From Streptococcus ovis DSM 16829 (lineage in GTDB: Bacteria; Bacillota; Bacilli; Lactobacillales; Streptococcaceae): a DNA stretch of 63,338 nt. Numbering within the stretch: the first letter of the stretch is position 1; every line of letters starts with the position of its first letter. The stretch covers positions 116,382-179,719 of the forward strand of contig NZ_KB904581.1 in the NCBI RefSeq assembly GCF_000380125.1, written 5' to 3'. Shown in pieces: positions 22,635-50,530 of this stretch. Both the position numbers and the translations under genes were made by a program. The notes beneath the pieces were generated by a model. The model searched no databases, had not been told where the DNA came from, and saw only the letters and a list, made by a program, of their open reading frames with translations.

Positions 22635-24947
22635 CTAATCTGAAATACGTATAAATGGAAGTCCCTCTGTACGATCAATCGGATCGGTACTAGCAATTTG
22701 CCAAAGGTAAGACAAACTAGTCCAACCATTGTTTGCAGCATTGTACGGATCTAACACATAGGTTTGTCCATTTCGGTAACCCTTCAAGACAATTTCATGA
22801 CCACCAACTGCAATGTATTTGCTTGGTCCAACTGCTGCCGTTACATAGTAATCTTGACGCAATGCTGTTTCCAGTGCCTGATAAGAATTTAGAGCGCTAG
22901 TCTTCAAACCCCAATTGCGTGCTGCCATTACCAGACCGCGTGAGCTAGTCCCATAGAAGTTACGGTTGTATTCTAAAGTATGATAGTGTAAGAAATTTCC
23001 AACTTGGACAGGCGTAACAGTAATGCCTCGTATCCCTGAAATAACCATAGCCATCGATGTTGGAACACAGCCCGTTGCCGCAAATGACCAGGCTCCAAAG
23101 TGAATCCCACCCCATCTACTATCTCGTTGAGAGTAGTAAGGAGCTTGATATGACGAACGAGCAACTGTAATACTGGTGGCACCCAAACCTCTCATTTGGC
23201 CATTCACTACTTGGTAAATGTGAATATGATATTTACCAGTCCCTTTGTGGTGTTGTACATTAAAGTTTCCAGCATAAGCAAATGCCTGCTGACGATATGC
23301 TTCATACCACCGCAAATCATCTTGCCCGCCTTGATCTGACCAGACCGCGAATCGAACAGGGCCCGAAGTATAAACCGGTTGAATCGAAAGATAATAATTT
23401 CCCATGCCATTGTATGAGGTATGGAAGCTAGTTACATTAGCTGGTTTCGTAATTTGAGCCTGAGTAGTTGCTAAACCAACCATTTTACCATTTTCAAGAA
23501 CAGCATAGACATGGGCATGATATTGTCCAAACGTATACTTATGGCTTGCGACAGAAACGGTCACTTTATATGTACCATCTGTTTGTAGACTCGCAGTATA
23601 CCACTGCAAGTCATCTTGACCTCCATCTGCAGACCAAACAGGAACTTTAATAGATTTTAAACCTCCAGGTGCCACTACATCCGATACAATCACATCAAAG
23701 CGCATGTTAGCTGAATCGATATTGCCAATTCGAACTTTTCCTGCTGGCGCTGGTAATGGTTCTACTTGGAAATCTTTTACTTGACCAATCCCAACCATTT
23801 TATTTTGAGGTGCGATAGTACCATATAGATGTGCGTTGTATTTACCAGTATCGAAACGGTGTTTTGACAAATTTACAAGGAGTTCATAGCTACCATCCGA
23901 TTTTTTCGTTGCCTGGTACCATACAAGATCATCTTGCCCCTTATTTTCAGACCAAACAGGAATTTTTAGAGAGGTCACATATTGTGGAACATTTGTCACT
24001 TTTATTAAATAAGATGCGTTAGATACCTTTGTCACCAATGACTGTACTTCTAATTTAGGTAACGTCACTTGAGTAGTTGTCGCCATCACACCACGAATCT
24101 GCTTGTTGGTCAATTCATAGTAGAGATGCACATGGTATTTTCCTGCTGTATACTTGTGTTTTGCAAGATCCACACTGACTTTATAACTACCATCTGCTTG
24201 TTTAATCGCAGTATACCAAACGAGATCATCCTGGCCTTTCTCATCGGACCAGATAGGCAAGCGTAGGCGATGAATAGATTGATTCATTGGTACATTTGTC
24301 ACAACGACATCAAAGTTTCCTTGATTCCCCTGTGGAACAATAGATAGATTAGGACCTTTTGCCTCCTCTTTTGTTATTGTTGGCTGTGTTGGTTCTTGGC
24401 TAGTAGCAGGAAGCTTGCTGGTAGTAACAGTCGAGGTTGTAGAAAGTGATCCTGTTGTCACAGGTTGCTCCACTTGAGTCGTTGTGCTACCTCCTAAGAC
24501 TGTTTGACTAGTCACTGTATTGGCACTCGCCCCTGTATCCTGTTTAGGATAAGTCAATTTATCAAAGTGGTAGCTTTGACCTGATTCAGTCTTTAGATGA
24601 ATCTCTAGTTCTTCCATAGTCAATTGATTCTGTGGTACACGAACTTCATACAGACCTGGGGAGGTCTCTTTAAAGGAAAAGGCTTCTTCTATTGGCCATG
24701 ATTTCGCCCACAGTTTAAGTTCTGCAATAGGTTCCTTAGCGAAAAAGACAGTATCTGGTACAAAAGTCATCACCAATTCATCATTCTCATAACGGGTCTG
24801 GTAACTAGCTTTAACTGATTGACCTTCCACAGCTGTAATCGATTGTTTTGCCGTAGCTTCATTAGCGAATACTGGCACAAAACTTCCGACATCCGTCATC
24901 AATAATGTCGCCAGAGCAAATGACGTCATCACTTTTCTAATATTCAT
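22635..24947 (-). CDS. Secreted GBS Bsp-like repeat protein with C39-like peptidase domain
   Basis: Protein of 770 residues. A signal peptide ends near VFANEATA (about residue 29). After a Ser/Thr-rich linker (about 140-195) come four Bsp-like repeats of about 95 residues, each with a core like VWSD.GGQDDL.WY and a tail KYTAGKYH.HLY. The last 170 residues form a papain-fold C39-type domain: ATGCVPTSMAM (Cys about 627), GGHEIVLKGY (His about 717) and VLDPYN (Asp about 733). No LPXTG motif, so it is likely secreted or wall-associated by its repeats. Probably cuts peptide or wall amide bonds; the substrate is not known. Confidence 0.87.
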   Translation of the reverse strand: MNIRKVMTSFALATLLMTDVGSFVPVFANEATAKQSITAVEGQSVKASYQTRYENDELVMTFVPDTVFFAKEPIAELKLWAKSWPIEEAFSFKETSPGLYEVRVPQNQLTMEELEIHLKTESGQSYHFDKLTYPKQDTGASANTVTSQTVLGGSTTTQVEQPVTTGSLSTTSTVTTSKLPATSQEPTQPTITKEEAKGPNLSIVPQGNQGNFDVVVTNVPMNQSIHRLRLPIWSDEKGQDDLVWYTAIKQADGSYKVSVDLAKHKYTAGKYHVHLYYELTNKQIRGVMATTTQVTLPKLEVQSLVTKVSNASYLIKVTNVPQYVTSLKIPVWSENKGQDDLVWYQATKKSDGSYELLVNLSKHRFDTGKYNAHLYGTIAPQNKMVGIGQVKDFQVEPLPAPAGKVRIGNIDSANMRFDVIVSDVVAPGGLKSIKVPVWSADGGQDDLQWYTASLQTDGTYKVTVSVASHKYTFGQYHAHVYAVLENGKMVGLATTQAQITKPANVTSFHTSYNGMGNYYLSIQPVYTSGPVRFAVWSDQGGQDDLRWYEAYRQQAFAYAGNFNVQHHKGTGKYHIHIYQVVNGQMRGLGATSITVARSSYQAPYYSQRDSRWGGIHFGAWSFAATGCVPTSMAMVISGIRGITVTPVQVGNFLHYHTLEYNRNFYGTSSRGLVMAARNWGLKTSALNSYQALETALRQDYYVTAAVGPSKYIAVGGHEIVLKGYRNGQTYVLDPYNAANNGWTSLSYLWQIASTDPIDRTEGLPFIRISD

Positions 24948-28911: not shown

Positions 28912-30018
28912 CTAGAAAATGCCTTCTGGATTCCAGCTAGATTCGCCTGTATAATGTTTAACCTTTTCTATTCCAGTTAAAACTCGAATCGCGCCATTTG
29001 CCATGGCTTCCATTTCAAATTCGCCTGGATAAGGATAAATGGGAGCAATCCATTTACAGTAGTCTTGAAGTTGGCTTACAAGATTTTCATTATGAACCAT
29101 ACCCCCACCAAGTAAAATAGCTGTCACATCTCCTTTTAAGACACAAGCCATCTCACCAATTGTTTTGGCAATTTGGTAAATCATCGTGTCCCAAACGTAT
29201 TTGGCTTTTTTATCTCCAGCTTGGGCGGCGTCTGAGACAGATTTTGCATCAGATGTCCCAATCAGACTGACCAATCCACCTGTTCGCGTGGAGAGTTTTT
29301 TCAAATCAGCTATGGAGGCACCATTTTCTAACAATTGGATGATATTTGCTAAAGATAAACTGCCTGATCGAGTTGGAGCCATTGGCCCTTCCCCACCAGC
29401 AATGTCAATTCCATCAATCATTTTCCCTTTGCGATGGGCAGACACAGAAATCCCTCCACCAATGTGGCAAACGATGTAGTTGACCTCTTCATAGTTTTCC
29501 CCTTGTCTTTTTGCATGCTGAAGAGCCGTTTCTTTCAGATTGAGAGCATGAAGATGACTCGCACGATAAACTCCTTTTACTCCCGTCAATCGTGCTAAAG
29601 GTTGATACTCATCTGTATCAGGTGGATTTACAACAAAAGCAGGACAATTGGCTTCTTTTGCAAATAAATCTGCTAATTGAGCTCCTAAATTTGCTGGATG
29701 TTCAACACCATTGGCGCAGGTACGAGCATCGTGAAGTAATTTTTTGTCAACAGTATATACTCCACCTTCTAGCGGCAAAAGTCCTCCACCTCGTCCAACA
29801 ACAGCTTGTAATTCAAGAATGGATACTCCTGCTTCATTTAAACAATCTTCAATCAAACTTTTTCTGTAATCCAATTGTTGATTATTATGTTCAAATTTGG
29901 CTAACTCAGTTGCTTCGTGTGAAATATTTTTATCGAACCGGCATTCTTCCCCCAGAAAATATGCAATTTTTGTCGAGGTTGAACCCGGATTGATGGTTAA
30001 AATCCGATAATTTTCCAT
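28912..30018 (-). CDS. buk: Butyrate-kinase-like carboxylate kinase
   Basis: ASKHA-fold kinase of 368 residues that interconverts acyl phosphate plus ADP and acid plus ATP. TINPGSTSTKIA is the phosphate-1 motif, HIGGGISVSAHRKGKMID the phosphate-2 motif and LLGGGMVHNENLV the adenosine site, all as in butyrate kinases. Acid specificity may be other than butyrate. It is the last gene of a six-gene operon, 9 bases after the Pta-like gene, so it would turn that enzyme's acyl phosphate into acid and ATP. Confidence 0.92.
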   Translation of the reverse strand: MENYRILTINPGSTSTKIAYFLGEECRFDKNISHEATELAKFEHNNQQLDYRKSLIEDCLNEAGVSILELQAVVGRGGGLLPLEGGVYTVDKKLLHDARTCANGVEHPANLGAQLADLFAKEANCPAFVVNPPDTDEYQPLARLTGVKGVYRASHLHALNLKETALQHAKRQGENYEEVNYIVCHIGGGISVSAHRKGKMIDGIDIAGGEGPMAPTRSGSLSLANIIQLLENGASIADLKKLSTRTGGLVSLIGTSDAKSVSDAAQAGDKKAKYVWDTMIYQIAKTIGEMACVLKGDVTAILLGGGMVHNENLVSQLQDYCKWIAPIYPYPGEFEMEAMANGAIRVLTGIEKVKHYTGESSWNPEGIF

Positions 30019-30027
30019 AGGGGCCTC

Positions 30028-31023
30028 CTAATAGGTTGCTCGAACAGCCGTCAAAGCAATATTTCCCACTAGTTCTGATACTGGTGCACTACGTGAGCAA
30101 TCGCTAATGACTTTGTTCATACCTGTAATCATTGGTCCATAAGCATCTCCCTTAGCAAATTGTTGTACCAATTTGACTCCAATATTTCCTGCGTTTAAAT
30201 CAGGGAAAATAAGGACATTGGCCCGTCCTGCTACTTGTGAGTCTAGACTTGCTTTTTTAGCTGCGACGGCGGGATTAATGGCAGTATCTAATTGGAATTC
30301 TCCCTCAATCAATAAATCCGGTCGTAAAGCATTAGCCACTTTCACAGCTTCTATCACTTTACCAGCCAATTCTCCTGTTCCGCTACCTAATGTTGAATAC
30401 GATAGCATGGCACAGCGAGGAGTCCAATCAAAAAGAGTCTGTACTGTTTCACAAGCTGAAATGGCGATGCTAGCCAAACTTTCTGCATCCGGATTTTGAC
30501 AAACCGCTGCATCTCCAAAAGCTAGTAATTGTCCTTCACTACCTGCAAATCCCGGAATATCCATAATCCCACAGCTAGAAACAGTCTTGATTCCTTCTTT
30601 CAAGCCAAGAATACTCTGCCCCGCTAGAATCACATCTCCCGTAGGGTGTGAAATTCCGGCAAAGGCTGCGTCTACTCGCTCTACTGCTGTCAATACTAGA
30701 GCGAAATAGAGGGGGTCAATAAGACGCCGCTTTAGGGATTTTCCACGAAAAATAGCATAGGGATAATTCAAATATTCTGTAATTAATTCCTCCTGCAGTA
30801 TTTCATCTTCCACATCATAAATCTCAAAGAGAGAACTGTCTAGCCCCAATTCTTCACATTGTTTGTTAATTTCAAGTAGTTTTCCAACTAAAACAGGGTA
30901 TATATAGCCCGCTTTTCCAGCCTCATGAGCTGCTTGTAGAATTTTTTCATCTTCTGCTTCGGGAAAGACCATGCGAGCTGGTCTATCTTTTGCCTTCTGA
31001 TAAATTTTTGTCATGACATCCAT
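30028..31023 (-). CDS. Phosphate acyltransferase (Pta/Ptb family)
   Basis: Moves an acyl group from a thioester to phosphate; 331 residues, nearer Pta than Ptb in length. Family motifs: VFPEAEDEKILQAA near the start, YSTLGSGTGE near 205, and LIFPDLNAGNIGVKLVQQF near 270. The start is the ATG after AGGTGA; a GTG three codons upstream directly follows the ACP stop. With an acyl carrier protein gene immediately before and a butyrate-kinase gene after, an acyl-ACP or acyl-CoA substrate other than acetyl is inferred. Confidence 0.88.
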   Translation of the reverse strand: MDVMTKIYQKAKDRPARMVFPEAEDEKILQAAHEAGKAGYIYPVLVGKLLEINKQCEELGLDSSLFEIYDVEDEILQEELITEYLNYPYAIFRGKSLKRRLIDPLYFALVLTAVERVDAAFAGISHPTGDVILAGQSILGLKEGIKTVSSCGIMDIPGFAGSEGQLLAFGDAAVCQNPDAESLASIAISACETVQTLFDWTPRCAMLSYSTLGSGTGELAGKVIEAVKVANALRPDLLIEGEFQLDTAINPAVAAKKASLDSQVAGRANVLIFPDLNAGNIGVKLVQQFAKGDAYGPMITGMNKVISDCSRSAPVSELVGNIALTAVRATY

Positions 31024-31032
31024 GAGTTTCAC

Positions 31033-31266
31033 CTATACTTCCGCTTCAACAACCTTTACCAAATCTCCAACTGTTACAAATTTCGCAGCTTCTGAAATTG
31101 GAATCATGACATCTAATTCATCTTCAATATTAGCTACAAGGCTTACCATCGCAAGAGATGAAGCAGCTAATTCATCCTTAAAAGAAGTTTCAAGTGTAAT
31201 GGTTTCTACTTCTACATCAAAGGCTTGAGCGACTAATTCAATAATAGTTTGTGTTACTTCTGACAT
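31033..31266 (-). CDS. Dedicated acyl carrier protein
   Basis: Four-helix carrier of 77 residues. The phosphopantetheine Ser lies in AASSLAMVSLV (Ser37); the residue before it is Ser in place of the usual Asp of DSL, and the acidic residues at the start of helix II are replaced by Ala, Met and Ser. It therefore differs from the fatty-acid AcpP and is likely recognised by its own partners: the thiolase-like enzyme and DUF35 protein upstream and the Pta-like enzyme downstream. It starts 15 bases after the DUF35 gene. Confidence 0.87.
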   Translation of the reverse strand: MSEVTQTIIELVAQAFDVEVETITLETSFKDELAASSLAMVSLVANIEDELDVMIPISEAAKFVTVGDLVKVVEAEV

Positions 31267-31281
31267 CTTTCTTCTCCATTT

Positions 31282-31704
31282 CTACTTTGCTTGAGCAAGG
31301 AAATCTTCATCTACTTCAAAGGCTACCATTTTATAGCCATCCCGAGGAACAATAATGGCATGAACAGGTACATTTGGCAAATGTTCTTCCATGTACTCTC
31401 TATTCTTCTTTTTAACACCCTTGATGATACAATTGAAATAGGCTCCTTCTTCAATTTCTACAGAACCATAGGCATAAGGCTTCATATCGTCATTGACTGG
31501 TTGGTGAGTCATCATGCCCGGTAAGAAGAAATCAATCATCTTCCCTTTACCAGAAATTTCAACCCATTCCATATCGTGTATTTCTCCGCAAGAGTTACAA
31601 GTCAGTACAGGCGGAAATTCAACAGCACCACATCCAGTACATTTACGACCTAATATTTTCCCTTCGTCTAGAGCATCATAAAATGTCTTTACAATTTTTT
31701 CCAT
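31282..31704 (-). CDS. DUF35 zinc-ribbon / OB-fold protein
   Basis: Protein of 140 residues with a rubredoxin-like zinc ribbon (CTGCGAVEFPPVLTCNSCG, four Cys at about 22, 25, 36 and 39) followed by an OB-fold (GKGKMIDFF, AYGSVEIEEGAYFNCII). DUF35 proteins sit beside thiolases: in archaea they channel acetoacetyl-CoA, and in PhlACB they form part of a C-acyltransferase. Here the gene follows a thiolase-like gene by 12 bases, so a stable complex is the likely role. Confidence 0.88.
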   Translation of the reverse strand: MEKIVKTFYDALDEGKILGRKCTGCGAVEFPPVLTCNSCGEIHDMEWVEISGKGKMIDFFLPGMMTHQPVNDDMKPYAYGSVEIEEGAYFNCIIKGVKKKNREYMEEHLPNVPVHAIIVPRDGYKMVAFEVDEDFLAQAK

Positions 31705-31716
31705 TACATCTTCCTC

Positions 31717-33018
31717 CTACAAAGTTCGCAAAATCGTTGCAGAAACATTTTGTCCACCACCAAAACCACGTAGTAAGGTTGTTTTTGGCAATTTCTTCAC
31801 TTGTCGTTCACCGCATTCACCACGCATTTGTTTGACTGCTTCATAAATATCTGCTAAACCTGAAGCAGCATGGGCATGTCCAAATGATGTACGACCACCA
31901 TTGGTATTGATTGGTTTATCTCCATCAAAACGTGTGCGACCTTCCAAGACATACTTGTAGCCATCTTCTTTTGGCAAGTAACCAGCAATTTCTGCTGCAT
32001 CCAAATGAGAAGTTACAATAAAGTCATTTGCGTAGAACAAATCAATTTCTTCTGGTTTTACTCCGGTCAATTCATAAACTTGACGACAAGCTTCACGAGT
32101 CGCACGGCGTTCCAAGTGTGGATTAGAAGCTTCTAGAGCTGAAGACCCAGTTCCCAAAATTTCAATCGGATGATCGGTGTATTTATAGGCCATTTCTGTT
32201 GGACAGACAATCACTGCAGCTGCACCTTCACTGCGCTCTTCCAATCCACTCACGCGCATATAATCACCAATTTTAGGATTAAATGGCGAATGTAGGAAGT
32301 CCATAGCAGAATTAAATCCTTTTTCCTTGGCAATTTCATCATAGGTCGTCTGCAATTTCGCTAGTGGATTCTTTGAGGCATTGTACCGATTGTTGATAGC
32401 CATAGCACAGAGAACATCATCCATTGTCTTTGCATCTAGTTTATGATCACGCGCATAAAGGGCTGCCAAGTCGTCAAAAACGGTATACATACCTGCTTGC
32501 ATACTGCGTGTATAAGCCCGATCGTAAATATACTTGAGAGAGGTATTAAATTCTTCCAAGCTAAACGCACGACGTTTATGAGCAGGTTGTCCCTCAACTG
32601 GAAGGCTTGCTCCCATATCAGCAGAGGCAGAAAGAACCATATCGTATTTACCAGAAGCAACAGCCATAACTGCAATTTCCAATGCTAAATAGCCTGTACA
32701 ACAAGCTTCAGAGTGATGCATTGACCCCTTCCCTTTCATACCAAACCAGTTGGCGACCTGCATATTAGGAGTAATATACTCTGAAACAAAATTTGGATTT
32801 GCCTGTCCGTGGAAATAATAATCAATATCTTTCGGTTGGACACCTGCATCTTTCATAGCTTCCAAGGCTGCATAACCAAATAATTCTCCTTCTGTTAGCC
32901 CTTCCGTCTCTGGACTACCTAAGATTTCCATAAATGGTGTACAACCAACTCCAATAATCGAAACACTCCGTCCATATGGTTTTAACGTTGTGTGATTTAA
33001 AACACCTTGATGTTCCAT
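31717..33018 (-). CDS. Thiolase-like acyltransferase (SCP-x/PhlC type)
   Basis: Thiolase-fold enzyme of 433 residues. The acyl-accepting Cys is in SEACCTGYLALEIAV (about Cys106, with a second Cys beside it) and the His motif is SFGHAHAASGLAD near 375. The final motif reads GFGGGQNVSATIL, so the second catalytic Cys of degradative thiolases (C-x-GGG) is missing. This is the pattern of thiolase-like C-acyltransferases that work with a DUF35 partner, the next gene. It might condense or cleave a beta-keto substrate; direction is unknown. Confidence 0.87.
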   Translation of the reverse strand: MEHQGVLNHTTLKPYGRSVSIIGVGCTPFMEILGSPETEGLTEGELFGYAALEAMKDAGVQPKDIDYYFHGQANPNFVSEYITPNMQVANWFGMKGKGSMHHSEACCTGYLALEIAVMAVASGKYDMVLSASADMGASLPVEGQPAHKRRAFSLEEFNTSLKYIYDRAYTRSMQAGMYTVFDDLAALYARDHKLDAKTMDDVLCAMAINNRYNASKNPLAKLQTTYDEIAKEKGFNSAMDFLHSPFNPKIGDYMRVSGLEERSEGAAAVIVCPTEMAYKYTDHPIEILGTGSSALEASNPHLERRATREACRQVYELTGVKPEEIDLFYANDFIVTSHLDAAEIAGYLPKEDGYKYVLEGRTRFDGDKPINTNGGRTSFGHAHAASGLADIYEAVKQMRGECGERQVKKLPKTTLLRGFGGGQNVSATILRTL

Positions 33019-33035
33019 AATGTATTCCTCACTTT

Positions 33036-33446
33036 TTATATTGATTTTTCCGATGTTATGCGTTCATAGCTTTTAGCTGTTAGCAGAGAAGCTATAATTG
33101 CTGTAAGATAAAGAATTGGTAAAGACTTAGCCCAATTTACCAAGGTTTCTGCCGTTATCGAATTCGCCTGCGCATTCAAGATAAATGTAATAACGGTCAC
33201 ATTAACGAAAGCAATGGAAACTAATGTCAATAAGAGTGGTGGAATTCCTACTTTCTTTGCCCATACTGGGCACCACTTATCTAATGGAATCACATAGACC
33301 AGTACCATTGCAATCAGAAAACCTTCTATCGTCGGTAAAAGAAAGTTTATTGCTGTAGGCGGCTGTCGGAGCAACAGTAAGGTTACTAAACTCAAACTAA
33401 CCGAAACTGCTGTATTCATGACAATATTGAATCGTAATTTTTCCAT
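33036..33446 (-). CDS. Small four-helix membrane protein
   Basis: Integral membrane protein of 136 residues with four hydrophobic segments (about 10-27, 33-55, 68-92 and 105-125) and a charged C-terminus. It is generally like DUF2798-type proteins but the family was not firmly recognised. First gene of the thiolase-DUF35-ACP-Pta-Buk operon, 17 bases before the thiolase gene, so it may help move the substrate or product across the membrane. AAGGAGG precedes the ATG. Confidence 0.72.
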   Translation of the reverse strand: MEKLRFNIVMNTAVSVSLSLVTLLLLRQPPTAINFLLPTIEGFLIAMVLVYVIPLDKWCPVWAKKVGIPPLLLTLVSIAFVNVTVITFILNAQANSITAETLVNWAKSLPILYLTAIIASLLTAKSYERITSEKSI

Positions 33447-33468
33447 ATATACCTCCTTTATTTTGCTA

Positions 33469-33559
33469 ATTTGATTATACCGCGCCTATCTCTTCTTTTT
33501 TTAGTAAGCACTTACAAAACAACAGGCAAAGATGGTATAATAATTGTAAAATATTACAA
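33469..33559. promoter_or_regulatory. Divergent promoter region with dyad sites
   Basis: Plus strand, pucR side: TTACAA (33512-33517), 18-bp spacer, TGG-TATAAT (33536-33541). The palindrome GTAAGCACTTAC overlaps the -35 (33504-33515) and TTGTAAAATATTACAA (33544-33559) covers the start site. Minus strand, operon side: TATAAT at 33480-33475 without a clear -35, as expected of an activator-dependent promoter. Twelve bases of the second dyad recur before the flavoprotein gene. Confidence 0.6.
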
Positions 33560-33571
33560 AGAGGGAAAGAC

Positions 33572-35158
33572 ATGAGATTAGACGACATCATTACAGCAAT
33601 TACATCTCAACACATTAAGATTGCCCAATTAGGAAATTCAACGATTAATATAAATGAAATGGTAGACAGTGATTGGTTTGACATGAGTAATCATGGAGAA
33701 GTTGGGACTTTCTACATTCTAGAAAATCCTCTTCCCTCTCAGCTCAAAGGCAGTGATCAGTCATTAACATTTCTATGCTATGAAAAAGAGGGCTATTTAG
33801 AACAACTATTATCAGCTTTTCCAAAATCCAGCATCATTGTTGCTAGCGACTTAGGGAATCTCTTGCAAATTAAAGAAGCGATTCAGCAAACACTCTATCT
33901 GAACTATGTTTCTTTAGAACGTTTATCAGAAGCTTACCATGCCATTTTCTCCGGCGCAAATTTCCAAAAACTCGCTGAAATTGGTACTCGAATCTTTGGA
34001 AATCCTGTCTTTATATTGGATAATTTGGGGAATTATATTGCCTTTCCACCATCAGATAGTACTGAAATGGTATTATTACAAGAGGAGCGACAACGTGGAC
34101 GGATTTTGGAAAGTGATCTCTCTGAACTCCGACGATTAAAGATTGATGCGATTTTACAAGAAACAGGTAAAGCCTACCTCTTTGAAAATCCAGTTCTGAA
34201 TCACCGTACTCTAGTGGACTTTATTCGACTCAATGGGACTGTTTTAGGGAGATTGATGGTGTATGATAAAAACAAACCCATCACCGAGGGAGACCGGATT
34301 GTCTTTATGCATTTTGCTAGAATTGTTGCCCTTGCTTTTACCCATGATCGCAACTATTTGATGAATAAGGAGGCATCTTATTCTTATTTTCTACAAGCTC
34401 TAGTCAACCGTAACAACACTGCCATAGCAGTCGGAAATGCTCAAATCGAAGAGATGAAATTACATATTCTTCACTATAAGCGAGTCCTTCTCTTTTCATT
34501 TATTGACGAGGCAGTCACAGAAACTAATAGGTTAGCAATTGCTAAACAGCTTCAATCACTTCTTGGAAATGCTCTTTATATGTTTCATGAAAATCGATTG
34601 GTTTTTCTTGTTTCAAGTAATCAGAAGGACTTTTTACAATCCAAAGTCAATCTATTACTAGAGTTCTGTCAAATTACCAGTCTTCGTTTAGCAAGTAGCC
34701 ATATTTTTTATGACTTTAATCTTTTTCGACAAATGTTTCAGCAAGCAAGTCAAGTGGAAAACATTGTCAATAAATACCAATTAAAAGGGAATCTCTTTTC
34801 TTATCGCTACTTAGATAGTCTGATAACACTAGATTTGCATCGTACGAACCATCCTGCTTTTGTCCACCCTGATATTCTAGAACTACTTACTCATGATCAG
34901 AATAAAAAAAGTCAATTATTGACAACTCTTGCTACCTACATCCTCTTTAATCAAGATATTGATGCGATATCACATTACCTTTTCGTTCACCCAAATACCC
35001 TTCGTTATCGCATCAAGCAGATCAAAAAACTCCTTCACAATGATTTACAAGATTGGCTTCTGCTCAAAACATACTACGATTCATTGGTACAACTCTTCCA
35101 AATAGGAGACATATCCAACCAAGATTTAATCATAAAATATGATTTACACTTTCTTTAA
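33572..35158 (+). CDS. PucR/CdaR-type transcriptional regulator
   Basis: Regulator of 528 residues. The N-terminal 125 residues are a PucR-like domain, residues about 135-250 look like a GAF-type ligand domain (AHFARIVALAFTHDR closes it), and the C-terminus is the PucR helix-turn-helix with YLFVHPNTLRYRIKQIKKLL near 475. Such proteins sense small carbon or nitrogen compounds and control adjacent catabolic genes. Divergent from the acyl operon with 125 bases between and upstream of the flavoprotein gene, it is the natural regulator of both. Confidence 0.87.
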   Translation: MRLDDIITAITSQHIKIAQLGNSTININEMVDSDWFDMSNHGEVGTFYILENPLPSQLKGSDQSLTFLCYEKEGYLEQLLSAFPKSSIIVASDLGNLLQIKEAIQQTLYLNYVSLERLSEAYHAIFSGANFQKLAEIGTRIFGNPVFILDNLGNYIAFPPSDSTEMVLLQEERQRGRILESDLSELRRLKIDAILQETGKAYLFENPVLNHRTLVDFIRLNGTVLGRLMVYDKNKPITEGDRIVFMHFARIVALAFTHDRNYLMNKEASYSYFLQALVNRNNTAIAVGNAQIEEMKLHILHYKRVLLFSFIDEAVTETNRLAIAKQLQSLLGNALYMFHENRLVFLVSSNQKDFLQSKVNLLLEFCQITSLRLASSHIFYDFNLFRQMFQQASQVENIVNKYQLKGNLFSYRYLDSLITLDLHRTNHPAFVHPDILELLTHDQNKKSQLLTTLATYILFNQDIDAISHYLFVHPNTLRYRIKQIKKLLHNDLQDWLLLKTYYDSLVQLFQIGDISNQDLIIKYDLHFL

Positions 35159-35167
35159 CCTACAAAA

Positions 35168-35237
35168 AGTGCTTTTGAAAGCACTATCTGACATATAAAA
35201 AAACGAACAAATCTATTGTTGATTGTGTTCGTTTTTT
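35168..35237. terminator. Hairpin and bidirectional terminator after pucR
   Basis: First a perfect stem AGTGCTTT / AAAGCACT (35168-35185), then arms AAAAAACGAACA (35198-35209) and TGTTCGTTTTTT (35226-35237) with T runs on both strands. The second ends pucR and the convergent flavoprotein gene. Confidence 0.85.
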
Positions 35238-35312
35238 ATTTAATGTATGATGTTTCAAATTCGATGATTTGTTCATTTAAAATAAACACCCTTATCAGAC
35301 AGGAATTATCAT

Positions 35313-37052
35313 TTATTTTAAATTATTAACAATAGCTTGACCTGCCATCCGTCCTGAATTGACTGCAAACCCCATAGAATTTCCTGGTAAGGTAAAGTTA
35401 TAACTGTCTCCGTAAATGGTATTGGCATCTGATCCTGCACTATATAGTCCTGGAATTACTTGATTTTCCTCATCCAAAACCTGACATTGAGCATTTATCC
35501 GTACACCACCCATCGTACCATACGCACCTACATAATATTTACCAACTAAATAACCGCCCTCTCCAGTAATTGGGTGCAAGAACTTTTCATCTTTAAAGAA
35601 AATTTCATCCACTCCTTTGGCGCAAAATTGATTGTATTCGGTAATCGTATGGTGTAACGTTTCAAGTGGAATCTGCAATTTAGCTGCTAATTCTTCAAGC
35701 GTATCAGCTGTAATAATCGCTTCGTAGTTGTTTTCTTTCGCTTTTTGTACATCCTGATCAATCATATGGAACCCTTGAACTGGGTGAACAAAGTCTACAA
35801 TGTCCGGTCCATTTTCTTGGTAATTTTTCAAAATCGAACGATCCATAATACAATATGCATAGTGGCCCGGTTGTAAAGCAATAGCATTTCCAGCAAATGT
35901 TGTATTTCCCATGAACCCTTCATTCATAAAGCGTTCCCCACGTTGATTGATAAGAAGATTTGGTTGACGAAGGACACCATCGGCTATCATATAATCTAAG
36001 TTATGTGGCAAAACAAAGATGATTTCTGTGGCTAGGCCAAACTTTTGAGCACCTGCCTTCCACATCATTTTCAGACCTTCTCCCGTAATACCTGGTACAT
36101 TAAAAGTATAAAAATTCTGATTCAAATCATATCCAAATTCTTCTTTAATCATTGCAGCGTTGCTACCAAAGCCTCCAGTTGCCACAATCACAGCCTTAGC
36201 ATGAGCATGAATCACTTGTCCTTCCTTACTTGTAGCAGTCAGACCAACAACCTTGCCACCTTCTAGCATCAAATCATCTACTGGTGTATTTAAGTAAAAG
36301 TCAACCCCCAATTCTTTGGCTCTTTCTGTCATCGCCTTATTCATTGGTGCTGCAGCACCTGGACCGATTTTTCCATTATTATCTACAATGTGCCAAGTTG
36401 CTTCAGATTCTTTAAAGTAACGGAATGCACCTGCAAATTTAACTCCCATTTCTTGCAACCAATCTATTGTATTGCTAGAAAGGTTAAAATAGGTTTGTAC
36501 TAAATCAGCATCCACACGGTAATGTGTGTATTCCATTTGTTTGGTCAAAGCCTCTTTAATAGAAAGATCATTGAACATAGACCGTTGAATCTTAGTATTA
36601 ATGCCCAAAGGTCCCATTCCCATATTCGCAGTGCCACCAGTAACCGATTGTTTTTCAAAGACAGCTACAGTTAATCCTGCTTCTGCAGCTGTTACAGCTG
36701 CTGCTAATCCAGCTGGCCCTGCTGCAACAATGGCTACATCCACTGAAATATCTTTCTCAGACAAATCATGCTCTTCCTGCAATCCTGCTTTTTTCAGAGC
36801 ATCTTCTACTGCATCCATAATCGCATGAGAAGAAACAGTTGCTCCACTGACTGCATCTACTTTGGTAGATTGTTGGGCAACAATTCTTTCTGGAATATAT
36901 ACAGAAGCATTATCTGGATAAGCAGGAGAACCATGATTCCCTAACACCTTAACTGCACCAATTTTACCACCAACAATTGTAACTTCAACATCATAATCAC
37001 CATGTTGCCCCTGACCAGTACCAACATAGATTCCATTGTTTAATTCAGACAT
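35313..37052 (-). CDS. Fumarate/urocanate-reductase-like flavoprotein with FMN domain
   Basis: About 579 residues. Residues 1-95 are an FMN_bind domain whose motif DAVSGATVSS (Asp66 to Thr72) is the ApbE flavinylation site. The rest is a FAD_binding_2 domain: VDVAIVAAGPAGLAAAVTAA (first Gly of GxGxxG is Ala), FEKQSVTGGTANMG, LINQRGERFMNEGF and the closing GLYSAGSDANTIYG. This layout is that of soluble urocanate, acrylate and cinnamate reductases that reduce an enoate C=C. No signal peptide, so cytoplasmic. GGAGG is 7 bases before the second of two ATGs. Substrate not known. Confidence 0.88.
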   Translation of the reverse strand: MSELNNGIYVGTGQGQHGDYDVEVTIVGGKIGAVKVLGNHGSPAYPDNASVYIPERIVAQQSTKVDAVSGATVSSHAIMDAVEDALKKAGLQEEHDLSEKDISVDVAIVAAGPAGLAAAVTAAEAGLTVAVFEKQSVTGGTANMGMGPLGINTKIQRSMFNDLSIKEALTKQMEYTHYRVDADLVQTYFNLSSNTIDWLQEMGVKFAGAFRYFKESEATWHIVDNNGKIGPGAAAPMNKAMTERAKELGVDFYLNTPVDDLMLEGGKVVGLTATSKEGQVIHAHAKAVIVATGGFGSNAAMIKEEFGYDLNQNFYTFNVPGITGEGLKMMWKAGAQKFGLATEIIFVLPHNLDYMIADGVLRQPNLLINQRGERFMNEGFMGNTTFAGNAIALQPGHYAYCIMDRSILKNYQENGPDIVDFVHPVQGFHMIDQDVQKAKENNYEAIITADTLEELAAKLQIPLETLHHTITEYNQFCAKGVDEIFFKDEKFLHPITGEGGYLVGKYYVGAYGTMGGVRINAQCQVLDEENQVIPGLYSAGSDANTIYGDSYNFTLPGNSMGFAVNSGRMAGQAIVNNLK

Positions 37053-37107
37053 CATGTGCCCTCCTTATTTTCTCTAATTTTTTTCATCATATCATAAGTC
37101 ATTATGG

Positions 37108-37171
37108 TTTAGATTGTAAAGTTTGACAAAAAGTTCACAATTTATTCGTCTATTTCTAGAATATTTTACAA
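37108..37171 (-). promoter_or_regulatory. Flavoprotein promoter with shared motif
   Basis: Minus strand TTGTGA, 16-bp spacer, TACAAT (about 37140-37113), flanked by a near dyad TTGTGAA / TTTACAA. Farther upstream, plus 37160-37171 is the exact reverse complement of TTGTAAAATATT at the pucR promoter, in the same orientation to its gene. The remaining 190 bases up to 37360 are AT-rich with no gene. Confidence 0.45.
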
Positions 37172-43059: not shown

Positions 43060-44355
43060 CTACCTTCGTCGCCTTCGTTTAATCACCATTGCTTCATGTG
43101 GCAAATGGTCAATCAGATAACCTGCACTAAAACTACTGTCCTTGTATGGTTCATAACGTTTCCGCCAATCACCAAAAAAGAGGTCTTCTAATTGGTCCAC
43201 TCGTTCTAAGAGAATCATTCTGGCCATAGCACAAGCTCCCTCAATAGACCAGTACATCCCCCTATGCTTCATGCGATACGTCACCTTACGGTGCTGACTC
43301 TCCATAACTCCTATTCCACGTGAAGATAGTCCTCTTAGTTTAGGTGGCTTGGTATCCTTGAAACCTCTCATCAGCTTTTGACGAAAGGATACGAAACACT
43401 CGTACTCTTCTTCAGTTTGTACCAGGGACTCAATCGTATCAAATAAAGTCACAAGCAACGGCTTTTGGTGGGTTTGAATAGCCTTGAAAGCCAATTCCAT
43501 GAGGGTAGAAGGGTAAGGCTTAAGGAAGGTTTTTAGCTTCTCGTTGAGATGGTAGGCATCCCAAAAGTGTTCGTGGTGTTTTATCCCTAAAGCTTTTTTG
43601 ATTTCCTGAAAAACTCGCTTGGTGTAGCCCTTGCCATTGTCTGAGTTGGTGATTAGAATAGTCTTGTCCGTGATTTCAAAATGGTTATAGAGGTAGTCCA
43701 GAAGTTCCTCCTTAGCCTGGTCATAATTGACATTGATAATCTCATGCTTATTTTGCAGGATATAGCGATTGTTGCCAATTTTCTTAGCTCCTGTATGGAT
43801 AAGAAAGTGGGCTATATCTGTATTGTGCCGTTCATCTCCAGCTGAACTTGTTTTGACCATCACTCCGTCCCCCTCCAGGTAGATTTTGTCTGCCTGGATT
43901 TTTTGTGGTTGTTCTCCTTCCATATAAAAGCGATACCGTTCTTTCTCAGAAAAGAGCCTTCCAGCAGTCTTGACCGCTTTTAAGACGGCATCCTTAGTCA
44001 CCTCCAAACGGTAAGCGACCTGGATCGTTCGACAGACTTCACGGTAGGATAAAACAGAAGCATGCCTCGCCATATGGTAAATCAGTTCAGGAGAATACCG
44101 CATATACTTTTTCAAACCGAGCCATTCATCGACAGGGTAACGAGTCTCAACTCCCTTTCTCCAACGGTTCCTGGAGAAGGTCATTTCTCCAAAGGTAAAC
44201 AAGACAGTCCGTTCACTAGCATCTATCCGCTGATAACCTTTCAGCCTCATCACAGAAGCCACCTGCTCATCATACTGTTTAATTTGCTTGAGAAACTCTT
44301 TCTCACGTTGTCTATCTAAGGCCACCACAAAGGCTTTTTCATCAAATCCAATCAT
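43060..44355 (-). mobile_element. ISLre2/UPF0236 family transposase
   Basis: Transposase of 431 residues, intact, ending in a basic KRRRRR tail. It belongs to the ISLre2 (UPF0236) group by its start IGFDEKAFVVALDRQREKEF and motifs TFGEMTFSRNRWRKG, YLEGDGVMVK, ITNSDNGKGYTKRVFQEIKK and FWDAYHLNEKL, the last two probably holding catalytic acidic residues. I could not define the terminal inverted repeats or target duplication. It lies 50 bases from the relaxase stop, at the junction between chromosome and mobile element. Confidence 0.88.
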
Positions 44356-44405
44356 AGTTTTATTATACTGAAAACAGATAGAAACTTTTCTGAAAAACTC
44401 AATAG

Positions 44406-46040
44406 CTAGAGTGACTTTTCTTCCGACTCATGTTTGCGAGTGCCTATCTCACGTAAGTTAATCTGATCTCTCATTTCTTGGTAAGTTGTATAAGTCCTCA
44501 CGGTATCATCGAAAAACTCTTGCAAAGCGCCCTTTTCTACTTCAAACTGCTTAATAATCTGTGCCACTTCCTCAAGGTGAATGTCTTTAGGTACTCCCAA
44601 CTCTTCTAACAGCTGCATGCCCACCAAGTTATTTTCTGGATTCTGCTTCAGAGAAAGTAAAGCCCCTTCTATTTTGTGATAATGAGCCAGACGGTCATCT
44701 AATCGACTTAGCTCCTTGTGGGTCGCATCGATTTTCTCGTTAAATCGCTCCTCTAACTCTCGGAACTGTGTGCCATCTGTTACGCCATGTTTCACCAGAA
44801 AATTATACTCTTTAATCAACTGACGCATGGATGCTATTTGAGGATTTTTTGTGATAAGCACCTCTCCATTTTGTTTAGCTAATTGTCTCGCGACAGTTGT
44901 TCCCATCATGTAACGGTTCTTTTGAGACTGGTCTGGATTGAGAAAATAAAAGTAATCTTTTTCCTTGATGTAAATCGTGTAGTTACCTTCTTCATTCTTA
45001 TCTACCTTATGGGAAGGAACTAGAATTGTGCCACTATTCAGAGCACCATAATCCATCTGGATATAGATACCCTGTGGGCTTTCTTGTTCCACTTGCCAAC
45101 TAGCCACTTCTAACTTCAACTCAAAATCTTGTTCCACCTCAGCCTTTAATTCCTGATATCGTTCCTTTATTTCAGAAGTGCTTACCACCAACTCATTAAG
45201 AACCAAACGCTCTTTTATTTTTTCTAAGGAATAGTCCCCCTTCTTAGAAAGCGTATCGTCCCTGACATTTCTTTGTTGGGGTTCATCAGTAAGTTTGTAT
45301 TTAACAAACTTACCAGAAAAATCAATCTGAAGGTCAAGAGCCTTGGCTTTTTCCTTGAAGTCTTCTAGTGATACGGATTGCTTCAGAAGAAAGTCTAGAC
45401 GTTGTTTAATTTCAAACCGATAATTATTCTGTCGTCTCCAAGCTGAATATTTAGTATAAGAATTTTTCATAGTAGGTTCAATAATTTTAGCTCCATATTT
45501 GGATGCTTGTTTATCTGAGATGGCTTGTAAATTTTTAAGAGTATTTTTCTGCCAACGAATTTTTTTCAGCGTTGAAGTGTTTGTCGTAGATAATATGATG
45601 TGATTATGGAGATGGTTTTTATCGGTATGAGTTGCGATAATAAACTCGTGATCTCCTCCAGTAAATTCCATCATGGTCCGTCTACCAATTTCATGAACTT
45701 GTTCAGGTGTTAGGTTGTCATCTGGCGAAAAAGATTGGATAATATGATGGGCCAGAACTTGTTTTCCCGAAGACAATTCCTTGAGGTCATCGTCTCCTTT
45801 TTTTAAGGCCGCAGCTAATTTTGTCATGACCATTTCTTCATCTGCCACGCTAACGTCTTCAATCCTGTGACCAGAAACTAGCTTCAGTTGCATCTCTCCA
45901 TTGTGATAAACTAATGGAAAATCAAAGTCTTGATCTCCTGAATTTTGGATCAGTGTTTTAGCCTCGTTCAAAATATAGCGGACGGCTATTTTTAAGTTGG
46001 ATGGTGTTTTAATTTGTTTAGGTGGTTTAATAGCTACCAT
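44406..46040 (-). CDS. MOBP-type conjugative relaxase
   Basis: Nicks the element at oriT and pilots the strand to the recipient; 544 residues. The catalytic metal-binding motif HTDKNHLHNHIILS is at about residue 137 and the N-terminal KPPKQIKTPSNLKIAVRYI region holds the family start. The C-terminal half is coiled and charged. Similar to relaxases of Tn5252/ICESa2603-type elements. It overlaps mobC by 7 bases (ATGGTAG), so they are coupled. It is the last gene of the transfer operon. Confidence 0.9.
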   Translation of the reverse strand: MVAIKPPKQIKTPSNLKIAVRYILNEAKTLIQNSGDQDFDFPLVYHNGEMQLKLVSGHRIEDVSVADEEMVMTKLAAALKKGDDDLKELSSGKQVLAHHIIQSFSPDDNLTPEQVHEIGRRTMMEFTGGDHEFIIATHTDKNHLHNHIILSTTNTSTLKKIRWQKNTLKNLQAISDKQASKYGAKIIEPTMKNSYTKYSAWRRQNNYRFEIKQRLDFLLKQSVSLEDFKEKAKALDLQIDFSGKFVKYKLTDEPQQRNVRDDTLSKKGDYSLEKIKERLVLNELVVSTSEIKERYQELKAEVEQDFELKLEVASWQVEQESPQGIYIQMDYGALNSGTILVPSHKVDKNEEGNYTIYIKEKDYFYFLNPDQSQKNRYMMGTTVARQLAKQNGEVLITKNPQIASMRQLIKEYNFLVKHGVTDGTQFRELEERFNEKIDATHKELSRLDDRLAHYHKIEGALLSLKQNPENNLVGMQLLEELGVPKDIHLEEVAQIIKQFEVEKGALQEFFDDTVRTYTTYQEMRDQINLREIGTRKHESEEKSL

Positions 46041-46429
46041 TCGTCATACGTCCTTATTTCTTTTTCTTTTCGTTCCTGTAGGCTCTTCTTCTCCGTACTA
46101 GATAGCTTAGCCGCCACCATATCTTTTAGTTCAGAAAGATAGGCTAAGACTTGAGCAAGTTCTTCCGTGCTAATCTCCTGATTTTCGTTAGCGTGTTTGG
46201 CAATTTGATTGATGTTTCCACCAATCCGATTGACGGCCACTCGTAGAGCCTTCAGTTCTGAAAAATCAATCTGGACAAGTTTTCCCTGTACCAGTTGGTT
46301 CTTAGCATAGTATTGAAAAGTAGGTGCCTTCATCTGTTCCATGGTATATTTTACTTGTTGGTATTCCTGTTCCGTAAAGTAGACTTCTTTGCGGATACTC
46401 CTCTTTCGATTTACTGTTTTTTGAGGCAT
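46034..46429 (-). CDS. mobC: MobC-like relaxosome accessory protein
   Basis: DNA-binding helper of 131 residues that assists nicking by the relaxase. The basic start (QKTVNRKRSIRKEVYFTEQEYQQVK) is ribbon-helix-helix-like and AVNRIGGNINQIAKHANE is the MobC motif near 75. An ATG 16 codons upstream exists, but AAGGAGG lies just before this one. It overlaps the relaxase gene. Confidence 0.9.
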   Translation of the reverse strand: MPQKTVNRKRSIRKEVYFTEQEYQQVKYTMEQMKAPTFQYYAKNQLVQGKLVQIDFSELKALRVAVNRIGGNINQIAKHANENQEISTEELAQVLAYLSELKDMVAAKLSSTEKKSLQERKEKEIRTYDEW

Positions 46430-46463
46430 AGCCTCCCCCTCCTTTCCTTGTGGCAAGCGTAGC

Positions 46464-46600
46464 ATTTGCCCGGGCAAATACGAAATTAAAAAAGGTCAGA
46501 GAAGGTCAATCTTACGATTTTCCTTCTTGCCTTTTTCAGTTTTGGGGAAATCCCCAACCCCCTAAATCCTGCCCCTCTATCAAGAGAGACAGAATTTTTT
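46464..46600. other. Candidate oriT region
   Basis: The stretch between mobC and the next upstream gene holds a perfect 16-bp palindrome ATTTGCCCGGGCAAAT (46464-46479), a GGTCA-N7-GGTCA repeat (near 46496-46512) and a second dyad TTGGGGA-AA-TCCCCAA (46542-46557) followed by a C-rich run. Position just upstream of mobC-relaxase is usual for oriT; the nick site is not identified. Confidence 0.4.
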
Positions 46601-46612
46601 TAGATGATAAGC

Positions 46613-47050
46613 CTATCCAAAGGGTTTTAGAATTTTCTTCCAGAGTGATGGCTTCTGCTCATTTTTTTCAGTTGCCTGTGTCTGACGTTCTGAAGCCTGC
46701 TCTTGTTCTGAGATAAGTTTTTTCTTCAGTTCTTCCAGCTGATTTTCACTAAGTGGCTCAAAGAGTGACTGGCCAATTTGTAGCTCCGTTAGCAATATTT
46801 TTTCATCACGGACTACTAGGAAATCTTCATCACTGATTGTTTTCAGGAGCTGAATATTCTCTTCCTGCCAACTCATTAATGAAGCATCGTCTTGATTGAA
46901 TAGTTCCCTGTCTGCTAGCAACTGGTCTAAAACTTCTTGGCGGGTGAGGCTATCGGCTTCAGGGGAAATTCCTTGGATAAGGTCACCGTCCATCAGCGGA
47001 ATAAAATCTGATAGGATGGCGTGGAGTTGGTTTTCTTGTTGGTCTGTCAT
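46613..47050 (-). CDS. Hypothetical ICE protein, 145 residues
   Basis: Acidic helical protein with no signal or membrane segment, starting MTDQQENQLHAIL after GGAGG, and ending in a short basic amphipathic tail (SLWKKILKPFG). A longer frame upstream has no ribosome binding site. Function unknown; it lies between the primase-ArdC gene and mobC in the transfer operon, and may be a relaxosome partner by position. Confidence 0.75.
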   Translation of the reverse strand: MTDQQENQLHAILSDFIPLMDGDLIQGISPEADSLTRQEVLDQLLADRELFNQDDASLMSWQEENIQLLKTISDEDFLVVRDEKILLTELQIGQSLFEPLSENQLEELKKKLISEQEQASERQTQATEKNEQKPSLWKKILKPFG

Positions 47051-47120
47051 GTGTGTTGTCCTCCTTGGGGTGGTGGTGTTTTTAATTTGACCTTGGGTGT
47101 CTTTTGGGTATCCCGTTCGG

Positions 47121-50100: not shown

Positions 50101-50276
50101 TCTCCAAATGTTCCCCTGGAATACCAGTGCCAGGTGTTTTTTGTGGTATCGATTTTGAAGGAATCGTGCTCTGTCCAGTAATATTCCTTATGAGACGACC
50201 GTTTCATATCCATCCCAAGGCTCCTAGCCACGTCTAAAATAGCTAGGGATTTTGCTTGTGCTTTAGTAAAAACCAT
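47121..50276 (-). CDS. DUF3991/Toprim primase-like protein fused to ArdC-like antirestriction domain
   Basis: Protein of 1051 residues. Residues 1-110 resemble a zinc-less CHC2 primase head (TFGDTINLVQEMRDVSY); about 110-340 are DUF3991 and Toprim (VVAEAPIDLMSYYELH; LAVDQDKAGSDFIEQL). About 690 a calcium-loop sequence DSDADGISDEEELKQGTN appears. From about 725 an ArdC N-terminal ssDNA-binding domain (SSRNLRLILAQHPEATQVAS) and a metallopeptidase motif HETAHSELHH near 935, then a coiled coil. It may prime the incoming strand and shield it from restriction. LtrC-like proteins share this plan. Confidence 0.85.
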   Translation of the reverse strand: MVFTKAQAKSLAILDVARSLGMDMKRSSHKEYYWTEHDSFKIDTTKNTWHWYSRGTFGDTINLVQEMRDVSYKEAMTFLETGNFPEAKPREEIRQSFRYSLAPYEQTFREARTYLKETRELSDETIDFFLEKGVLAQARRKDRDGFIEDVLVFKYLDKNQNIVGASLQGLVPYPERHEGKGYLKQIMYQSEGIAGLNVSIGAPERLVVAEAPIDLMSYYELHKDSLENVRLVAMEGLKEGVLSRYAMEALQERGVVKEIPLDYTKSKDLTQASNFLPEVARLTTLFHDGEHADLITLAVDQDKAGSDFIEQLKEKNIPVIDARPPKGEGQEKMDWNAYLQAGKGLGQKEKAPEQILKPEMDRSNGSMGSLQLEAEGSPAPVAETSATFEQTVTSHPTFSYPLLKFSTNNEKVQRRYKDYHLVDADDMKRLKQYAPSIQAAAQWYLNEVADSRIMYVFADNGSEKVLAVDFLKENFIHLTGIRPFEPSKTAADFLVDFAEGRGNFPNILSSHALKEKLQVLPMLEDILDSRSFVLNDLSSVEKLHRLDFSEAIKAKDEDFLLLFKDSDKGTVPASLMKLKGELATNVRGINEKVILGIYRERRGQIEQLSLNDDYIKDGGKQLLSLLQSRELDTFQEQIVEEVPQIRRDVQEELEEKGPQSSISQLDSDADGISDEEELKQGTNPHDFRSKPGSRLLEEHNLEPEEVAITSSSLAVADFIKNKDVAGLNRHLKEGIKDYLDSDKYKDYLTKMSQLNNYSSRNLRLILAQHPEATQVASFKQWKETFGRHVKKGEKSIRIFAPMTKIKKDENNQPILDKNGKPETVTFFGLVPVFDVSQTEGKEMPKATSEVKEQLTDVDYANLYRALMAIAKENNVTVRFDEMTGDKKGHYNVTEHQIVLRSNDMNKSQLIKTFIHETAHSELHHANNPQQDMLTRSTAELQAESVAYVVASYYGIDTSDYSFAYLAGWSDDKESLADLEAQLDIVQQEAKSLMVRMDQQLEQLRLAQEKQAQNQFEQKLQKFKDQSKQAIEEHKQEQKAEAHSKKEKGFSK

Positions 50277-50530
50277 TAAATCTGTCCTCCTACCAGGTGT
50301 TTGAAGAGGTCATAGCCTTCAGGGGTAGCCTCTAGAGGGTAACCAATCAAGGTACCTTCTTCATCTCTTGTCACGAAGAGATGAGGAGATAGCGAGTAGA
50401 AAGTCTCTTCATCTGCCTGTTTCAATAATTGATTAATCACGGTGTATTCTGTTGCTAGGCTCTCTTTTTGCAGAGATAACACTTGGCTAATTGTCTCTAA
50501 AAAGCCAAGTTTGAGTTTTGGTGTTTCCAT
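50276..50530 (-). CDS. Hypothetical ICE protein, 84 residues
   Basis: Small acidic cytoplasmic protein with no recognised domain, sharing one base with the primase-ArdC start codon (the A of TAA/ATG overlap). It lies between the coupling protein and the primase gene, so it is part of the transfer operon. Function unknown. Confidence 0.75.
   Translation of the reverse strand: METPKLKLGFLETISQVLSLQKESLATEYTVINQLLKQADEETFYSLSPHLFVTRDEEGTLIGYPLEATPEGYDLFKHLVGGQI

Follow-up and report, generated by a model that had tools for sequence, protein, structure and literature searches.

Gene content of the locus

The window analysed here, a stretch of 63,338 nt from Streptococcus ovis DSM 16829 (contig NZ_KB904581.1; all coordinates are positions in this stretch), carries a minus-strand operon running from 33446 to 28912 that encodes a membrane protein, a thiolase, a DUF35 protein, an acyl carrier protein (ACP), a Pta-like phosphotransacylase and a butyrate-kinase-family enzyme (Buk). 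The gaps between these genes, from 5' to 3', are 17, 12, 15, 0 and 9 bases. A PucR-type regulator gene is divergent from the operon and a flavoprotein gene lies beyond it. These eight genes had been claimed in a preliminary description of the sequence; all were found where it had placed them and their families were assigned by profile search:

28912..30018, minus strand: butyrate-kinase-family acid kinase, Buk (TIGR02707, 398 bits against a cut-off of 289.1)
30028..31032, minus strand: Pta-like phosphotransacylase, a proposed acyl-ACP:phosphate acyltransferase (PF01515, E 4.2e-84)
31033..31266, minus strand: dedicated, divergent ACP (PF00550, E 3e-11, 43.8 bits against a cut-off of 20.8 bits)
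31282..31704, minus strand: DUF35 protein (zinc ribbon and OB fold), thiolase partner (PF12172, E 2.4e-8; the OB-fold model PF01796 is below its cut-off)
31717..33018, minus strand: thiolase-superfamily C-C bond enzyme (PF22691, E 1.1e-28)
33036..33446, minus strand: small hydrophobic membrane protein, encoded first in the operon (open reading frame of 136 aa; sub-threshold DUF2798 match, E 0.067)
33544..33559, no strand: candidate operator TTGTA-N6-TACAA, a perfect dyad between the PucR gene and the operon
33572..35158, plus strand: PucR-type regulator, divergent from the operon (PF13556, E 2.4e-12)
35313..37055, minus strand: flavoprotein with FMN_bind and FAD_binding_2 domains, beyond PucR (PF04205, E 1.6e-12; PF00890, E 3.7e-56)
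37114..37129, no strand: weak match to the candidate operator, with one mismatch, upstream of the flavoprotein gene; could be due to chance

The Pta-like enzyme scored below the housekeeping phosphate acetyltransferase equivalog TIGR00651 (248.3 against 311.2 bits), and the ACP scored below the fatty-acid-synthesis equivalog TIGR00517 (49.1 against 70.45 bits). Hydroxybutyryl-coenzyme A (CoA) dehydrogenase, crotonase and butyryl-CoA dehydrogenase were absent from the ten proteins profile-scanned between 25 and 37 kb, the other open reading frames of the window being read by eye only. The lack of CoA pathway genes among the scanned proteins bears out the earlier statement that this is not standard butyrate fermentation.

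Homologues of the membrane protein were encoded 5' of the thiolase gene in three other Streptococcus loci (50-56% identity), and the protein is a possible transporter of substrate or product. In S. orisasini (L036, 9572-9787) its open reading frame was only 71 aa with a longer tblastn match, and this gene may be disrupted. The TTGTA-N6-TACAA dyad was perfect and in the same intergenic place at all four Streptococcus loci. When up to one mismatch was allowed, the whole window held five matches against 3.2 expected and 21 of 100 shuffles reached five, a number not above chance.

The flavoprotein had been described as enoate-reductase-like. This assignment had to be given up, as the family is of the fumarate/urocanate/vinylphenol-reductase type with FMN_bind and FAD_binding_2 domains and not of the Old Yellow Enzyme type. 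Its best NCBIfam model was the vinylphenol reductase VprA (NF053717), at 323.7 bits against a cut-off of 600, and its best solved relatives were urocanate and fumarate reductases, which with VprA belong to the same FAD-dependent reductase superfamily. The motifs AYGTxGG and YGDSYN...PGN are common to the window enzyme and to flavoproteins linked with the module in Coriobacteriia. They stand in place of HTMGG and NRLGGN, two motifs with a role in fumarate and urocanate reductases. The replacement of both motifs rules out a simple fumarate reductase and suggests that the substrate is not a dicarboxylate. The window flavoprotein also has an SGAT motif, which serves in flavinylation, and ApbE is encoded in the genome. 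The enzyme is probably a C=C reductase that would either supply the pathway or act as an electron sink. Beside the cluster in S. caviae and S. orisasini (L034 576-3592; L036 1581-4538) another FAD reductase of the FMN_bind type (613 aa) is encoded, which lacks the AYGTxGG/YGDSYN signature, and in both species a zinc alcohol-dehydrogenase-like gene was also noted by eye.

Conservation of the gene set and of catalytic residues

The 70 thiolase loci used to assess conservation come from streptococci, gut anaerobes and archaea and were scored with family hidden Markov models built from the first 38 loci. This set omits the duplicates L094, L096, L106, L116 and L120, keeps the near-duplicate L049, the generic archaeal thiolase L122 as a control and the outliers L107 and L108, and includes several short contigs. 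Within 8 kb of the thiolase, DUF35 was encoded at 70/70 loci, the ACP at 60/70, Pta at 53/70 and Buk at 50/70, and the complete five-gene core was present at 43 loci. PucR was found in the same range at 31/70 and AcpS at 18/70 (archaeal copies, Micrarchaeota among them, included), and within 10 kb FMN_red was encoded at 19 of the 70 loci and the flavoprotein family at 12. At generic thiolase control loci, with flanks of only 1.5 kb, ACP, Pta and Buk were found at 0/29. Thiolase identity correlated with the identity of Pta (r 0.78) and of Buk (r 0.88) across 44 loci, and none of 2000 permutations reached either value. As the core recurs in most of the 70 loci and thiolase identity tracks that of Pta and Buk, the gene set is associated beyond chance, and the recurrence rules out an accidental cluster. 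The genes thus co-occur across genomes and phyla; a lack of co-occurrence was one of the outcomes that the preliminary description had named as refuting its reading.

Several of the proteins were also found fused. The thiolase was joined to DUF35 at L040 and L041, DUF35 to the ACP at L060, L061 and L064, and DUF35 to two ACP domains at L056, L057, L058 and L059, the ACP fusions having been checked with Pfam. In the L056, L057 and L058 proteins the zinc-ribbon match was below the Pfam cut-off and BLAST aligned them with DUF35 of the window at 52-56%. The fusions as a whole suggest a single working unit made up of thiolase, DUF35 and ACP. A fusion call at L100 rests on length only, and two further candidates are not claimed: L112, counted as a DUF35-ACP fusion by length and not confirmed, and L063, where the thiolase part of a possible thiolase-DUF35 fusion is in two frames and has no C-terminal domain hit. 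At the DUF35-ACP-fusion loci (L056-L061, L064) genes for URO-D family proteins, AprA-like FAD proteins and hydrogenase-like iron-sulfur proteins cluster, and acyl-ACP thioesterases are encoded near some of them. In several genomes there were two or three paralogous module thiolases, not all of them with a Pta and Buk of their own, as would be expected if different substrates feed one ATP step; examples are L074 and L075 in genome G880 and L097, L101 and L102 in genome G955.

The window thiolase aligned with thiolases 7yvy and 6esq, its nucleophile Cys106 was kept in 78/78 family rows and the catalytic-type His381 in 78/79. His70, kept in 61/79 rows, is a candidate counterpart of the essential, phenol-contacting His56 of PhlC. 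The four zinc-ribbon Cys of DUF35 were conserved in 73/73 rows. The Ser to which phosphopantetheine is attached was kept in all 57 ACP rows, two of them from duplicate loci. An Asp before this Ser (the DSL motif) is standard in ACPs and was present in none of the 57. In Buk, 20 positions were at least 97% conserved across 59 rows.

The Pta-like enzyme was compared with five canonical Ptas using the residue numbers of the Methanosarcina thermophila enzyme, and the 62 module rows include five from duplicate loci. The equivalents of the catalytic Ser309/Arg310 pair were kept in 62/62 rows, and the equivalent of the CoA-linked Arg133 was absent from 61/62, with Leu in the window enzyme. Arg28 was kept in nine rows. 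Arg87 was kept in none in the exact column, and the loop of the window enzyme has no Arg. A paired control was made with PF01515 proteins from 13 module-carrying genomes, covering the 30 of 34 matches that were given as loci; the four matches without a locus, which include a Ptb-type enzyme beside a module thiolase in the L055 genome, are outside it. Housekeeping Ptas kept Arg28, Arg87 and Arg133 in 12/12 cases, whereas in module-type Ptas of the same genomes Arg133 was kept in 0/18, Arg87 in 1/18 (beside a gap) and Ser309/Arg310 in 18/18. Loss of Arg133 is not a Ptb trait, because the solved Ptb 7vg9 carries Arg at this position. Mutants of Arg87 and Arg133 in the M. thermophila enzyme mainly changed Km, according to the available text of the study (PMC6461089), and in the available text on a hybrid malic enzyme the 3' phosphate of CoA is in contact with an Arg from the Pta domain (PMC7902834); this Arg is probably equivalent to Arg87. 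The Pta signature together with the DUF35-ACP fusions is a simple genomic marker for the module.

Proposed reaction sequence, substrate and alternatives

The preliminary description had read the genes as moving an acyl thioester to phosphate and then to acid plus ATP. As far as gene anatomy goes this reading is well supported, by the co-occurrence, the ACP Ser in 57/57 rows, the Pta catalytic pair, the Arg133 loss and the thiolase Cys and His. We propose, with a probability of roughly 0.55, that the genes form a self-contained catabolic module in which thiolytic C-C cleavage onto the ACP would be followed by formation of an acyl phosphate and then of acid and ATP, without CoA. The thiolase-DUF35 complex would use Cys106 to attack either a 1,3-dicarbonyl or an acyl-phenol or polyphenol ring in its keto tautomer. 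One half would be released and the acyl group would pass to the phosphopantetheine of the dedicated ACP, after which the Pta-like enzyme would exchange the ACP for phosphate and the Buk-family kinase would make ATP and a short acid. PucR would switch the operon on, and the FMN/FAD reductase would either prepare the substrate by C=C reduction or dispose of electrons. Descriptions of substrate-level phosphorylation from acyl thioesters normally have CoA as the carrier; what is new here is the evidence for ACP rather than CoA as the carrier, and the wide spread of the module.

The substrate may be a plant polyphenol. At L072, from a gut bacterium, genes for PucR, thiolase, DUF35, ACP, a 2,4-diacetylphloroglucinol (DAPG) hydrolase, Pta and Buk are adjacent; the hydrolase was identified by Pfam with the whole protein, and a PDB search with part of it gave no match. 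The phloretin/DAPG hydrolase family PF18089 was present in 7/10 module-bearing and 0/20 other Lachnospiraceae-type genomes (Fisher p 5.9e-5), the 20 controls being the first unmatched genomes in the Faecalicatena-family listing rather than a random draw and two of the ten carriers coming from a peptide-pattern scan. The one FMN_red neighbour that was tested, at L047, had as its only PDB match the flavone reductase FLR (7D38; PMC7862272), over 112 residues in the first third. Near L074, L075, L076, L099 and L100, Gfo/Idh-like genes resembling C-deglycosylation genes were seen by eye, with TIM-barrel-like genes at some of these loci. In the available text of PMC6392133, the PhlC thiolase subunit, which is homologous to the module thiolase, forms acetyl-Cys88 from acyl-phloroglucinol without CoA, with the DUF35 protein PhlB as its partner. 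By analogy, the module could carry out a PhlC-like de-acylation or a ring opening with the ACP as acceptor. A more specific version, in which phloroglucinol- or resorcinol-type polyphenols, after flavin-dependent reduction, would be cleaved thiolytically as their 1,3-diketone tautomers with ACP as the carrier, giving fermenters ATP without CoA, and with self-contained Micrarchaeota versions possibly serving another substrate, is tentative and somewhat doubtful.

A number of observations weigh against the proposed catabolic module. The steps from thiolase to kinase are all reversible in principle. At least one core gene was missing within 8 kb at 27/70 loci, some of them on short contigs. The Pta at L052 is Ptb-type and retains the Arg133 equivalent, and no ACP was seen near it. 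The loop that holds Arg87 is gappy, and an Arg lies within three columns of the position in 12/62 rows, archaeal copies among them. Arg89 and Arg135 mutants of the Porphyromonas gingivalis Pta showed moderate effects only in the available text of PMC6461089, so loss of these residues is not proof of an ACP substrate. PF18089 was found in 0/4 streptococcal carriers, which makes the polyphenol idea weaker there, and the archaeal copies, read by eye, had no reductases alongside, so the substrate may differ in those genomes.

A first alternative is the opposite direction, in which the kinase and the Pta-like enzyme would charge the ACP with an acid at the cost of ATP, and thiolase-DUF35 would use the acyl-ACP to acylate or extend an acceptor in a Claisen or Friedel-Crafts biosynthesis like that of PhlACB. 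ACPs usually serve biosynthesis, and the distant relative L107 adjoins FabD-like and carboxyltransferase-like genes (by eye). The closest thiolase-DUF35 chemistry is a reversible acyl transfer in the available text of PMC6392133. However, the neighbours in gut bacteria are PucR, MFS-like transporters (by eye), flavin-dependent reductases and PF18089 C-C hydrolases, so that the setting looks catabolic, no other biosynthetic genes are present in the streptococcal cluster, and L107 is on a long branch at the base of the bacterial clade. We consider this direction rather unlikely. The L107 locus itself, read by eye, has DUF35, ACP-like, FabD-like acyltransferase, carboxyltransferase-like and PucR genes and may belong to a separate branch that uses malonyl units.

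Ordinary CoA-based short-chain acid metabolism, in which the thiolase would cleave a 3-ketoacyl-CoA, Pta and Buk would make ATP and the ACP would be incidental, draws on the usual use of CoA by Pta, Buk and thiolases. Among the PDB relatives of the thiolase, several bear the names of CoA enzymes, and the Arg133 equivalent of the L052 Pta also fits. This explanation is unlikely given the ACP at 60/70 loci, its fusion to DUF35 in seven proteins checked with Pfam, the linkage of AcpS at 18/70, and the loss of Arg133 in module-type Ptas when the housekeeping Ptas of the same genomes keep it. In addition, a CoA ligase, a CoA transferase, a hydratase and an acyl-CoA dehydrogenase were all absent from the eight genes. 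A last alternative is a retro-aldol instead of a retro-Claisen reaction, as in the steroid side-chain aldolases of the Ltp2-ChsH2 type, which to our knowledge lack a nucleophilic Cys; the acyl chain of the substrate would then be borne by the ACP. This fits the naming of the DUF35 Pfam models for ChsH2 and is very unlikely with Cys106 kept in 78/78 rows, whereas steroid aldolases repurpose thiolase residues in the available text of PMC12329534.

Several known systems share parts with the proposed module. PlsX with FakAB takes acyl-ACP through acyl phosphate to fatty acid, and is similar in combining acyl-ACP/acyl-phosphate interconversion with an acid kinase; the families are unrelated, belong to long-chain lipid metabolism and carry out no C-C cleavage. 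Pta-Ack and Ptb-Buk pair a phosphotransacylase and an acid kinase in tandem to give acid and ATP, but the module Ptas nearly all lack Arg133, the ACP accompanies thiolase-DUF35 and there are no butyryl-CoA genes in the cluster. PhlACB, which disproportionates monoacetylphloroglucinol (MAPG) and DAPG in Pseudomonas, also has a thiolase with Cys and His kept and a DUF35 protein with a Cys4 zinc ribbon, and its acyl transfer on a phenolic C-acyl group is CoA-free (PMC6392133), as is proposed for the module. It differs in a third, HMGCS-like subunit, PhlA, with no such gene among the eight, and this rules out membership. Its acyl group goes to another phenol, and the available text of PMC6392133 names no ACP, Pta or kinase. 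The phloroglucinol pathway of Clostridium scatologenes (PGR-DPGC-TfD-TAL) is similar in its anaerobic cleavage of a 1,3-dicarbonyl C-C bond feeding acetate/butyrate kinase, but its enzymes in the available text (PMC10470551) are an NAD(P)-dependent dehydrogenase, a beta-keto acid cleavage enzyme, a CoA transferase and a CoA thiolase. 'Acyl carrier' occurs 0 times in the main text of that paper, and the different enzymes rule out membership here too. A literature search for combinations of the module parts, covering mostly open-access full text with preprints outside, found no description among the titles listed (12 of 26 in one case) and returned the known phloroglucinol pathway, a review on lignocellulose and an unrelated review; as this coverage is partial, the lack of a description is no proof of novelty. 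An existing assignment of homologous clusters to a known pathway, the other refutation named in the preliminary description, was thus not found within that coverage. The earlier statement that no described pathway with these parts was known in streptococci agrees with this search, but the module is not peculiar to streptococci.

Distribution, origin and significance

Close relatives of the thiolase were rare in the order: matches were found in 4/196 relatives and 1/395 genomes of the order (the window's own genome counted in both), and in a sample of the phylum the thiolase matched in 39/398 genomes including the window's own, the others at 36% identity or less. The other Streptococcus carriers among the relatives were S. 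caviae, S. moroccensis and S. orisasini. Six peptide patterns run against a species-genome collection returned 38 loci, whose hosts were Streptococcus, Erysipelotrichaceae, Coriobacteriia, Lachnospiraceae, related gut metagenome-assembled genomes, one environmental actinobacterial metagenome-assembled genome and archaea; the loci in gut anaerobes and archaea rule out a Streptococcus-only oddity. Thiolase matches at E 1e-60 or better, with the query genome included and some matches distant, were found in 9/250 genomes of the Faecalicatena family, 21/197 of the Collinsella order and 5/117 of the class of the Micrarchaeota locus. The Micrarchaeota-type loci L066, L068, L070, L119 and L121 are self-contained clusters of thiolase, DUF35, ACP, AcpS, Buk and Pta, and an ACP was unexpected in such genomes.

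In the thiolase tree the module family formed one clade (69 rows, 100/100) separate from seven generic rows and L122. The four streptococci were within a clade of 16 rows (99/98) with Erysipelotrichaceae and gut clostridial rows; the long-branch warnings of the tree all concern rows other than the streptococcal ones. This nesting suggests that the streptococcal module was gained horizontally. The window cluster sits after rpoD-DUF59 and three relatives have other genes at that site, which also fits horizontal gain without being proof of it. The genes after the cluster in S. caviae and S. orisasini differ from those in the window.

Elsewhere in the window, conjugative-element-like genes were noted at 43063-57908, about 6 kb from the flavoprotein gene past rpoD, dnaG and mscL, and encode UPF0236, a relaxase, a type IV secretion system coupling protein, a tail-lysozyme/M23 protein and a PBECR4 nuclease-domain protein. 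The gene at 22638-24947 encodes a large protein in which four GBS_Bsp-like repeat stretches occur together with a C39-like peptidase domain. A plasmid search gave hits that were all below 60% identity, and an Rfam scan of the window at gathering thresholds gave no match.

If the proposed catabolic module is correct, gut and rumen bacteria, as well as archaea with small genomes, would have a distinct additional route of energy conservation, with a private carrier and, in part of the hosts, the activating enzyme adjoining. The module would also help to tell which microbes gain ATP from plant phenolics. Streptococcus bovis is listed among rumen phloroglucinol degraders in the available text of PMC5633678, and, if the polyphenol reading is true, the module could be the genetic basis, so far missing, on which streptococci such as this rumen species use polyphenols.

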